From positions 1 to 22,892 of the IMG/VR virus record IMGVR_UViG_3300020183_000491: a stretch of DNA of 22,892 nucleotides; one strand, given 5' to 3'. The position numbers and the translations under genes were made by a program. Every line of letters starts with the position of its first letter. Position 1 is the first letter of the stretch. Positions 3,111 through 9,080 of the stretch are shown one piece after another. A model generated the notes under the pieces. That model was not told the DNA's origin and did no database searches. It saw only the letters and a list, made by a program, of their open reading frames with translations. Origin of the DNA: a virus.

Positions 3111-3983
3111 ATGGCAGTTTCTGTGTATTTTAATAATCAGGGTGCAACAAGAGAACAGTTTTTAATCGAAGATTTAATTATTGAATCGATTAAAAATCAT
3201 GGAATTGATATCTATTATCTTCCGCGTAAATCTAGATCATCAATCGATCAACTCTATGGCGATGATCCTGTTAAATCATACGAATTAGCATTTAAGATTG
3301 ATATGTATCTTGAGACGTTTAATGATTTTGAAGGTAATCGAGAATTCTTTTCTAAATTTGGTTTAGAAATTCAAAAATCTGCGAGAGTTGCAGTTGCTCG
3401 AAGAACGTTCGAAAAAAATATTGGTGTAAATATTCGCAATCTTCCAAAAGAGGGCGATTTAATTTATCTTCCTGTTCAACAAAAATTATTAGAAATTAAA
3501 TTTGTTGAAGAAGAAAAAAACTTTTTTCAGGCAGGTAAATCAGCGCCATATATGTATGTGTTAAGTGTCGAGGCGTTTAGATACAATGGTGAATTGTTAA
3601 ATACTGGCGTTCCTGAGATCGATGAAATTGCTGATAGGGAAGCAGTTTCTGTTGAATATACATTAAATGTTGATGGATCAGGAACGTTCGACGATATGGA
3701 AATTGTATATCAGGGTGCATCACTCAATGCTGCAACAGCAAAAGCATTCGTTGCTGATTGGAACAAACCAAATCGAATATTAAAACTTCGAAATATTAAA
3801 GGAGTATTCGCATCGAATGTAAACATTATCGGCAATACATCTGGCGCAACATGGACATTAGCCTCTGTAAATCTTATGGAAAATGCAAATGAAACCTTTG
3901 ATGATAATGTTCGCATTGAAACAGAGGCAGATAATATTGTAGATTGGTCAGAAGCAAATCCATTCGGATCGAGTGACGATTAA
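3111..3983 (+). CDS. 14: Neck protein gp14 (head completion)
   Basis: A 291-residue protein, partner of gp13 in the neck. I chose the ATG at 3111 rather than the upstream in-frame TTG at 3099, because the TTG lies inside gp13 and MAVSVYFNNQG is the usual family opening. The N-terminal two thirds carry the gp14 core (EQFLIEDLIIESIKNHGIDI, YYLPRK, and EFFSKFGLEIQ). Residues about 189-253 are a separate beta-rich module that also occurs in gp15. The C-terminus is acidic. The stop and the next start overlap as TAATG, so translation of gp15 is probably coupled. Confidence 0.9.
   Translation: MAVSVYFNNQGATREQFLIEDLIIESIKNHGIDIYYLPRKSRSSIDQLYGDDPVKSYELAFKIDMYLETFNDFEGNREFFSKFGLEIQKSARVAVARRTFEKNIGVNIRNLPKEGDLIYLPVQQKLLEIKFVEEEKNFFQAGKSAPYMYVLSVEAFRYNGELLNTGVPEIDEIADREAVSVEYTLNVDGSGTFDDMEIVYQGASLNAATAKAFVADWNKPNRILKLRNIKGVFASNVNIIGNTSGATWTLASVNLMENANETFDDNVRIETEADNIVDWSEANPFGSSDD
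3675..3869 (+). repeat. 65-residue module in gp14, shared with gp15
   Basis: This encodes residues about 189-253 of gp14, starting GSGTFDDMEIVYQG. An ungapped hand alignment with gp15 residues 231-295 gives 18 identical positions of 65, including GSG, E.VY.G, AA.A, FV..WN and GV. It is likely an added beta domain rather than part of the core neck fold. Confidence 0.7.
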
Positions 3984-4984
3984 TGTTATCAGAAAAATAC
4001 TTTTATCACAGAATAACTCGTAAACTTGTTGTTTCATTTGGAACATTGTTTAACAATTTACGATTAACTCGATATGATAACACAGGAACAACAGAAATTG
4101 AACGAATCACAGTACCATTGTCATATATGGCAAAGGAAAAATTCTTTCAACGCATAGAACAAGATCCTAATTTAGATAAAAGAGTTCAAATTACATTACC
4201 ACGTATGTCATTTGAATTAATTTCTATAACATATGATCCGCTTCGAACTAAATCTATATTTAATAATTCGTATACTTCTAGCAATAACTCAATTGTTAAA
4301 TCTTCATACGTGGCGCCATATAACTATGCATTTCAATTAAACATATATGTTCGTAACACTGAAGATGGTACACAAATTATTGAACAAATTTTGCCATATT
4401 TTACGCCAGATTACACTCTTACAATTAATTTGACTGATGGTGTTGGAGAAAAAATTGATGTGCCAATCGTTCTAGAATCGATTGATTATCAAAACTCTGG
4501 ACAAATTGGAAATTCTGAGGAATTACGCACATTAATTTGGACATTAGGATTTACTGTAAAAGCATATTTGTATGGTCCAATCGAAAATAGAAAACTAATT
4601 CGAAAAGTAACCGCAAATACACTAGATTCTACTGTTTTACAAACAGGTGAAAGAAAAATTAATTTAAGTTCTGGTTCGGGAAATTATAAAGTTGGTGAAC
4701 TTGTATACGAAGGAAAAACAGCGAGCGCCGCAAATGCCTCGGGTTTCGTTAAATCTTGGAATAATGTTGCGAATCAAATTATTATCACAGATGTTACTGG
4801 TGTATTGTTAACAGGTAACAAACTTACAGGAGCAGTTACAAATACTGCATATACAATTAATACTTTTGATATTAATGACAATCAATTAGTAAATATAACT
4901 GTGATACCAAATCCATCAACAGCGAATGCGAATTCTGATTTCGGATTTACAGAAACTATTGAAGAATATCCAAATATTACATGA
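3983..4984 (+). CDS. 15: Tail completion / sheath-terminator protein gp15
   Basis: A 333-residue protein. In T4, gp15 forms the hexameric ring at the head-proximal end of the tail, stabilises the sheath and docks to the neck. The opening (MLSEKYFYHRITRKLVVSFGTLFNNL) and the block LSYMAKEKFFQRIEQDP are characteristic of the family. Residues 1 to about 210 match T4 gp15 in extent (T4 about 272). The extra length comes from a C-terminal module (231-295) shared with gp14, plus a short tail. The start overlaps the gp14 stop, and the end overlaps the gp16 start as ATGA. Confidence 0.9.
   Translation: MLSEKYFYHRITRKLVVSFGTLFNNLRLTRYDNTGTTEIERITVPLSYMAKEKFFQRIEQDPNLDKRVQITLPRMSFELISITYDPLRTKSIFNNSYTSSNNSIVKSSYVAPYNYAFQLNIYVRNTEDGTQIIEQILPYFTPDYTLTINLTDGVGEKIDVPIVLESIDYQNSGQIGNSEELRTLIWTLGFTVKAYLYGPIENRKLIRKVTANTLDSTVLQTGERKINLSSGSGNYKVGELVYEGKTASAANASGFVKSWNNVANQIIITDVTGVLLTGNKLTGAVTNTAYTINTFDINDNQLVNITVIPNPSTANANSDFGFTETIEEYPNIT
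4673..4867 (+). repeat. 65-residue module in gp15, shared with gp14
   Basis: This encodes residues about 231-295 of gp15, starting GSGNYKVGELVYEG. It is the same length as, and alignable without gaps to, the module at 3675-3869. Both sit C-terminal to the conserved core of two proteins that are physical neighbours in the virion. Confidence 0.7.
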
Positions 4985-7052: not shown

Positions 7053-9080
7053 ATGGCATTTTTAGTTTCTCCAGGAGTTAATACTTCTGAAATCGATCTG
7101 ACAACATCAGTTCCATCCGTCGGAACTTCGACTGGTGCGACAGTTGGTGTGTTTCGTTGGGGTCCAGCAAATACAATTGTGCAAGTATCGAGTGAATCTG
7201 ACTTACTTCAAAGATTTTTTGCGCCAAATTCAACCACTGCAGAATCTTTTCTCTCAGCAACTAACTTCCTCGCATATGGAAATGATCTTCGTGTAGTTCG
7301 TGCAATTAATTCAACAGCAGGATTGACAGCTGCAAACAATGCACTTGCAAACACTGTAAACGCAAGCGGAACAAATGTACCAAGTTTCAGCGGTGTTGTT
7401 ACAGTAAATGTGGCACAACACTCTACTACAGTCACTGCAAATACAACTAATCCACAAAATAATAAATTTACATTGTTAACAAGCGGAGACTCGGTTACGA
7501 TTAATGGTGTTTTAAGAACAGTTGCCGCTGTAACTGATGCGAATACGTTTACTGTAAATTCAAATGTTGGATTCTCTGTTGCTGCAGCAATTTCAGACGC
7601 TACTCTCTTCGCGAACACTGGTATCGCAAGACCAGATGCTTTCGTAACAATCGCGAATGATGAAGATTACTTTAATACGCACTATGGATCATCTAACGGA
7701 TCTGTGCAATTTGTAGCACGTTATCCTGGAGAATTAGGAAATTCGTTAAAAGTTGAAGTATGCGCTAAAGAATCTGCGTTTACAGGATGGATGTATGCAC
7801 CGTTGTTTGACGAGGCACCGAATACATCCAATTACGCTACGGTAACGCACTCAGCGCCAAATGTTAAAGACGAATTACATATTGTTGTCGTTGATCAAGA
7901 TGGATTAATTTCTGGAGTAGCGAATACTGTTCTTGAGCGTTATTCGAACTTATCTAAAGCAACAGATGCTCGCGGTGACGATGGATCATCGATTTACTAT
8001 AAAGAAGTTTTATATCGAAACTCTCAGTGGATTTACTGTTTTGGACATCCGCATGGATCCAATGTTGCGAATACATATGGTCAAACGATTACTGCTGTTA
8101 AAAATAGTGGAGATGGTAAATTTTTTGAACCTGCAGCTGTTTCCTCATTCTCGCTTCAAAATGGAGCAGATGGAATAGTAACTCAATCAGCTATAACAAC
8201 AGGAATTGGGTTGTTTAATAATACAGAAAAAGTTGACGTCTCATTGCTCTTTGCTGGAGATTGCGGCGCTGGTGCAAACGCATCGATAAACACCGTAACA
8301 GTTGCAAATGAATACTTATCCGTTGCAACAGCTCGTAAAGATTGTGTTGCATTCGTATCACCCGCATATGCAAATGTTGTTGGTGCGCAAGCCTCTGCAA
8401 CTGCGATCGTTAATTATCGCAATGCATTGACTAGCACCTCTTATGGTGTAATGGATTCGGGTTGGAAGTATCAGTATGACAAATACAATGATGTTTATCG
8501 TTGGATTCCAGGTAATGCTGATGTTGCTGGTCTCTGTGTTCGAACAGATCTGCAGCGCGATCCGTGGTTCTCGCCAGCTGGCTTAAATCGTGGTCAAATT
8601 CGAAATCTTGTAAAACTTGGATTAAATCCAACGCAAGCAGAACGTGATACACTGTACAAGGGTGGTGTAAATCCGATTGTCTCATTCCCAGGAGAAGGAA
8701 CAGTTCTCTTTGGAGATAAAACTTTACAAGGACGCCCGAGTGCATTCGATCGTATTAATGTTCGTCGATTGTTTATCGTCTTGGAAAAGGCGATTTCTAT
8801 CGCTGCAAGATCAAGTCTCTTTGAGTATAATGATGAATTTACAAGAGCGCAGTTCGTAGCACTTGTAGAGCCATTCTTAAGAGATGTGCAAGGTCGTCGT
8901 GGTATCTTTGACTTCCGTGTTGTTTGCGATGAAAGCAATAATACAGCAGGAGTTATCGACCGCAATGAGTTCATAGGCGATATCTATGTTAAACCAGCAA
9001 GAAGCGTAAACTTCATTCAATTGAACTTTGTCGCTGTTCGAAGTGGTGTAGCGTTTGACGAAATCGTTGGTCGCTTCTAA
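7053..9080 (+). CDS. 18: Tail sheath protein gp18
   Basis: A 675-residue contractile sheath subunit, close in length to T4 gp18 (659). The N-terminus (SPGVNTSEIDLTTSVPSVGT) and the C-terminal block (PWFSPAGLNRGQI, NVRRLFIVLEKAI) are hallmarks of the sheath family; the C-terminal domain carries the conserved contacts to the tube. Residues about 111-180 look like an inserted beta module with GVVTVNVAQHSTTVT and GDSVTINGVLRTVAAV. AGGAG about 10 bp upstream of the ATG supports the start. The AT-rich gap before it holds a candidate late promoter. It is followed by the tube gene, as in T4. Confidence 0.96.
   Translation: MAFLVSPGVNTSEIDLTTSVPSVGTSTGATVGVFRWGPANTIVQVSSESDLLQRFFAPNSTTAESFLSATNFLAYGNDLRVVRAINSTAGLTAANNALANTVNASGTNVPSFSGVVTVNVAQHSTTVTANTTNPQNNKFTLLTSGDSVTINGVLRTVAAVTDANTFTVNSNVGFSVAAAISDATLFANTGIARPDAFVTIANDEDYFNTHYGSSNGSVQFVARYPGELGNSLKVEVCAKESAFTGWMYAPLFDEAPNTSNYATVTHSAPNVKDELHIVVVDQDGLISGVANTVLERYSNLSKATDARGDDGSSIYYKEVLYRNSQWIYCFGHPHGSNVANTYGQTITAVKNSGDGKFFEPAAVSSFSLQNGADGIVTQSAITTGIGLFNNTEKVDVSLLFAGDCGAGANASINTVTVANEYLSVATARKDCVAFVSPAYANVVGAQASATAIVNYRNALTSTSYGVMDSGWKYQYDKYNDVYRWIPGNADVAGLCVRTDLQRDPWFSPAGLNRGQIRNLVKLGLNPTQAERDTLYKGGVNPIVSFPGEGTVLFGDKTLQGRPSAFDRINVRRLFIVLEKAISIAARSSLFEYNDEFTRAQFVALVEPFLRDVQGRRGIFDFRVVCDESNNTAGVIDRNEFIGDIYVKPARSVNFIQLNFVAVRSGVAFDEIVGRF

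Follow-up and report, generated by a model that had tools for sequence, protein, structure and literature searches.

A small beta module shared by the neck protein gp14 and the tail terminator gp15 of a T4-like phage

Two neck proteins with the same module

The analyzed stretch of DNA, hereafter the window, is a whole virus record of 22,892 bases (IMGVR_UViG_3300020183_000491), and its closest named phages, judged by the terminase and the capsid protein (about 47-57% identity), include Pelagibacter phage HTVC008M, Methylophilales phage Melnitz, and cyanophages. Two consecutive genes (Table 1) were named from Pfam and PHROGs as the T4-type neck protein, or head closure Hc2 (gp14), and the T4-type tail sheath stabiliser (gp15). 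Both assignments combine a profile match of the core with gene order: gp14 (PF11649) is located between gp13 and gp15, and gp15 (PF16724) precedes gp16. The cores match T4 structures by sequence as well, and the AlphaFold (AF2) models have fold matches to T4 gp14 in 9mkb (chain 0) and 9lu5 and to T4 gp15 in 9mkb and 4hud/4huh, respectively.

Table 1. Features of the gp14-gp15 locus in the window
Feature	Position	Strand	Evidence and details
gp14, neck / head-closure protein (290 aa)	3111..3983	+	start ATG 3111; PF11649 E=3e-33; phrog_460 E=2e-73
gp14 module copy, six predicted strands	3648..3893 (residues about 180-261; 65-residue span 189-253 = 3675-3869)	+	module profile E=6e-33; AF2 pLDDT 83-89 over residues 181-250
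gp14 conserved C-terminal peptide ...EADNIVDWSEANPFGSSDD	3894..3980	+	N266, E281, and NPFG 283-286 invariant in 65 gp14s
gp15, tail terminator / sheath stabiliser (333 aa)	3983..4984	+	start ATG 3983; PF16724 E=6e-67; phrog_227 E=4e-71
gp15 module copy, six predicted strands	4649..4894 (residues about 223-304; 65-residue span 231-295 = 4673-4867)	+	module profile E=4e-31; AF2 pLDDT 82-90 over residues 221-290
gp15 conserved tail peptide NITVIPNPSTANANSDFGFTETIEEYPNIT	4895..4981	+	F320, G321, and F322 nearly invariant

The first-pass annotation had described a 65-residue segment common to both proteins; its coordinates are exact, and its alignment, a single ungapped diagonal with 18 identities, was reproduced. 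Homology of the two segments is evident from three comparisons: (i) the Smith-Waterman score of gp14 vs gp15 is 101, whereas shuffled versions of both proteins (2,000 shuffles) average 38 and never exceed 71 (Gumbel p about 5e-7), (ii) BLASTP aligns 70 positions without a gap at E = 1e-8, and (iii) the profile-profile comparison suggested by the same annotation, carried out with hhalign on the C-terminal families of the window clade (26 gp14 and 30 gp15), gives 99.1% (P = 8e-19) over 70 ungapped columns. Compared with cyanophage gp14, the window-clade gp14 and gp15 families score 99.8% and 98.3%, respectively; as controls, the gp14 C-terminus scores only 0-0.1% vs the C-termini of other gp15 types, from cyanophages. 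Both window segments match the profiles of the copies in cyanophage gp14 and giant virion proteins, the gp14 segment matching PHROGs 460, 701, 4406, and 18802. Searched against the whole window, the gp14 segment finds two copies only, those of gp14 and gp15. The modules follow the conserved cores, as had been noticed at first reading: the PF11649 match stops near residue 183 of gp14, and the PF16724 match stops near residue 221 of gp15. The T4 proteins are indeed shorter (256 aa for gp14, 272 aa for gp15), and neither has a module match.

The AlphaFold models, built from 65 gp14s and 48 gp15s, have a mean pLDDT of about 71, with 82-90 for the modules alone; pTM values of 0.49 and 0.55 make the placement of the modules relative to the cores uncertain. 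Predicted strands lie at residues 198-201, 210-218, 223-230, 238-241, and 247-254 of gp14 and at residues 240-243, 252-260, 265-273, 280-283, and 289-297 of gp15, plus one earlier strand in each, and a fixed shift of 42 residues brings the two sets into register. The extra beta domain proposed at first has six strands in either model, equally placed in gp14 and gp15 (pLDDT about 85). The module is a small predicted all-beta domain, probably barrel-like to judge by the strand pattern. Fold searches mainly picked up the cores, and the module profile had no credible match in PDB (best E 0.17). In Pfam searches with both proteins and 11 module copies nothing credible was found for the module, and no Ig-like family appeared at E<=1; the six strands per module predicted by AF2 compare with seven or more for an Ig-like sandwich. 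Judged by sequence, the module family has neither a Pfam model nor a PDB relative and is not Ig-like.

A permissive slot ahead of the terminal peptides

Peptides resembling ILDFS..NPFG close gp14 whether or not the module is present: the module-less gp14 of phiM12 has a similar ending, ILDFSDMDPYSS, and the T4 ending is SSPFDNDFMD. The gp15 tail peptide matches VTPNPTTADADDDFGF of the module-less HTVC008M gp15, in which the corresponding region reads KREQRYVVTPNPTTADADDDFGF, compared with TGERKI-module-NITVIPNPSTANANSDFGF in the window. Within the clade, the modules (56% and 53% for gp14 and gp15, respectively) are less conserved than both the tails (65% and 61%) and the cores (73% and 62%). 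The content of the gp15 slot varies between phages: it is empty in HTVC008M and S-CAM8, holds an EF-hand-like loop in S-PM2, an unrelated beta module in P-SSM4, Bellamy, and S-SSM7, and the shared module in the window's lineage. Because the tail peptides are kept with or without a module and the gp15 contents differ at one place, we consider this slot permissive in both proteins.

Several of these alternative contents were characterized by their sequences. The EF-hand-like loop found in the gp15 slot of other phages has the form DLDGDGDIDAQDD; at the C-termini of cyanophage gp15s (loci L236, L239, L004, and others), an EF-hand or dockerin-like loop, DLDGDGDIDAQDDALL, stands directly before the DFGF tail, at the module site, and may possibly be a calcium site at the tail terminator. 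The beta module of P-SSM4, Bellamy, and S-SSM7 (L003:2489-3520, L006:2492-3493, and L011:2489-3571, respectively) follows the pattern iyIg.ElmrV..v.gn.L.V.RG....t.vtH. The cyanophage gp15 insert was considered as a possible copy of the shared module and ruled out, as window-clade gp15 shares just the terminal peptide with it in hhalign. The gp15 of Pelagibacter phage Mosig (L300:2386-3984, - strand; 532 aa) has a long extension past its DFGY peptide, with a LamG-type-looking segment followed by glycine-rich repeats.

One module is present in 278 of 279 gp14s of cyanophages and environmental relatives, the sole exception being T4, and in all 73 complete gp15s from loci found via gp14 alone; since the environmental loci were collected by similarity to the window and two cyanophages, these counts describe those lineages and not phages at large. 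No module match was found in the gp14s of T4, phiM12, HTVC008M, Melnitz, and Mosig; phiM12 gp14 consists of the core and the tail peptide, and the gp14s of HTVC008M, Melnitz, and Mosig hold a different filler. Cyanophage gp14 (PHROG 460, head closure Hc2) resembles the window gp14 in having the same module ahead of the same NPFG tail peptide but is without the four-residue insertion that the window clade shows in its SL..AT loop, whereas cyanophage gp15, unlike the window gp15, carries another module, an EF-hand-like loop, or no insert. Among the gp15s examined, the module is confined to the window's lineage, which forms one branch of the gp15 core tree with 100% support; as far as sequences can tell, the gp15 module was gained a single time, in this lineage.

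Other carriers and the origin of the gp15 copy

The first-pass annotation had also suggested looking for the module in other proteins of related phages, and it was found in baseplate and giant virion proteins. Five cyanophage genomes each have 7-9 matches to the module profile, other genomes have 1-3, and T4 has none; the weakest of these matches (E above about 1e-3) may be due to chance. Besides gp14, the module-bearing proteins of the cyanophages are gp7-like giants 6,000-7,300 aa long and other proteins of the baseplate region. Two long environmental relatives add two more carriers, a baseplate wedge subunit of the gp8-like type (phrog_438) and a wedge protein about 1,100 aa long, for which PHROG 17744 is the best match; one of these relatives also has copies in a 1,056-aa protein. 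Several module copies were matched by PHROGs 701, 460, 18802, 4406, and 708. The giant virion proteins and baseplate wedge subunits (PHROGs 701, 18802, 4406, 708, and 438; profile E down to 1e-29) are alike in carrying module copies but differ in having many further repeats and domains and in belonging to the baseplate and not to the neck. The module is an unnamed, promiscuous virion module of open-water T4-like phages, here present in two partner neck proteins.

The first reading had left the choice between duplication and a mobile decoration module. Supported is a real beta module, added after the cores, absent from T4, and present in other virion proteins of related phages; a simple recent duplication between the neighbors is not supported. 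Recent duplication or gene conversion between gp14 and gp15 was rejected: module identity within one genome is about 25%, the same as between genomes, the DNA identity of the two copies is 47%, and no repeats flanking the modules were found. There is no GC shift either. In the module tree, the gp14 copies group together, and the gp15 copies lie opposite, with the baseplate copies (support 88/82), although with 82 columns both the gp14 grouping and the donor of the gp15 copy have moderate support. The identity level, the tree, and the lack of repeats and of a GC shift suggest that gp15 either acquired its module independently, out of a shared stock, or has an old copy that can no longer be traced. 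An ancient copy from gp14, now saturated, could still be its source.

A direct copying of the gp14 module into the adjacent gp15, with the pair co-evolving as contacting partners, would fit the adjacency of the genes, the ungapped alignment, and the loop YQG.SL..AT, which is common to the gp14 and gp15 of the window clade and missing from cyanophage gp14. However, this loop form also occurs in gp7-like and gp8-like copies, and the equal identities within and across genomes and the moderately supported clustering of the gp15 copies with the baseplate copies and not with gp14 speak against it. No coevolution of the two modules was detected by distance correlation (partial r 0.07, with 88 of 500 permutations as high). 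We regard direct copying as improbable.

The modules at the head-tail joint

The gp14-gp15 joint of T4 has been studied as a genome gate. T4 gp14 and gp15 (PDB 9mkb, 9lu4-9lu7, 4hud, 4huh) are similar to the window proteins in both cores, in gene order, and in the C-terminal arm at the gp14-gp15 joint and differ in having no module. In T4, gp14 residues 178-256 are disordered in the free neck and become ordered in the mature virion by extensive contacts with gp15 residues 203-245 (PMC12270204). The window modules fall within the segments matching these two regions. As the matching T4 segments bind each other (PMC12270204), the two modules are probably close neighbors on the outside of the head-tail joint, and by the same comparison they may plausibly touch.

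The best explanation in our opinion, and a fairly probable one, is that the module belongs to a set of virion modules that T4-like phages of marine and fresh waters carry and can interchange. The gp14 slot would have been filled early, in a lineage shared with cyanophages; the gp15 slot would have received its module from the same stock carried by phages, in a single event in the window's lineage. After joining of head and tail, the six gp14 and six gp15 copies would keep their terminal peptides docked in the gp14-gp15 joint, and the modules, six from each protein, would stand out around it in an outer ring that stiffens or decorates the joint. The ring, the mutual proximity of the modules, their stabilising or decorating role, and the surface collar envisaged by the first-pass annotation are what we infer for the assembled virion. 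In a more specific and rather unlikely version, the modules would form a matched pair interlocking across the head-tail joint, an extra clamp without a counterpart in T4, with slots that can be swapped between phages.

Another role, which we consider doubtful and even less probable than direct copying, is binding to the host surface, in which the copies would attach weakly to glycans of the cell surface, a role that has been put forward for the Ig-like domains of other phages. The module is indeed multi-copy and spread across tail and baseplate proteins, it is less conserved than the cores, and accessory domains with such a proposed role are known in tail sheath proteins (PMC9230969). However, it has no Pfam carbohydrate-binding or Ig-like match, the first host contact is far from the neck, and glycine, aliphatic, and aromatic residues prevail among the conserved positions, as would be expected of a fold core. 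Finally, two beta-rich segments could resemble each other by chance or convergence, as suggested by the identity of just 27% and by glycine-rich turns that can make small beta modules look alike; this reading is very hard to reconcile with the shuffle test, the hhalign score with its negative controls, the 70 ungapped columns, and the equal positions of the predicted strands.

Under the preferred reading of an interchangeable module family, the gp14-gp15 joint carries interchangeable add-ons in lineages other than T4. Although T4-like phages that are abundant in marine and fresh waters have it repeatedly in their neck and baseplate proteins, the module has no Pfam entry or solved structure, and its definition would name parts of many proteins annotated as "virion structural protein". 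Accessory beta domains on conserved virion cores are of an already known kind: those of phage tail sheath proteins are promiscuous and often Ig-like (PMC9230969). The window module is similar to them as a small beta module that is attached to conserved cores of virion proteins and probably lies off the assembly surface, and differs in having no Ig-like sequence match, in its six predicted strands, and in being shared by two neck partner proteins.

In the window's own sheath protein gp18 (7053-9080), the stretch near residues 105-187 has a weak similarity to a repeat of a wedge protein from a relative; as a possible second shared module, this insert has a weak match only (in phmmer, one stretch has i-E 1.6e-4, and E for the whole sequence is 0.025). 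The record itself starts inside a fibre-like protein (1-1575) in which FRAPIFYDSNDT.YYVDP units recur and whose end is similar to an intramolecular chaperone (SDIRLKDNI...).
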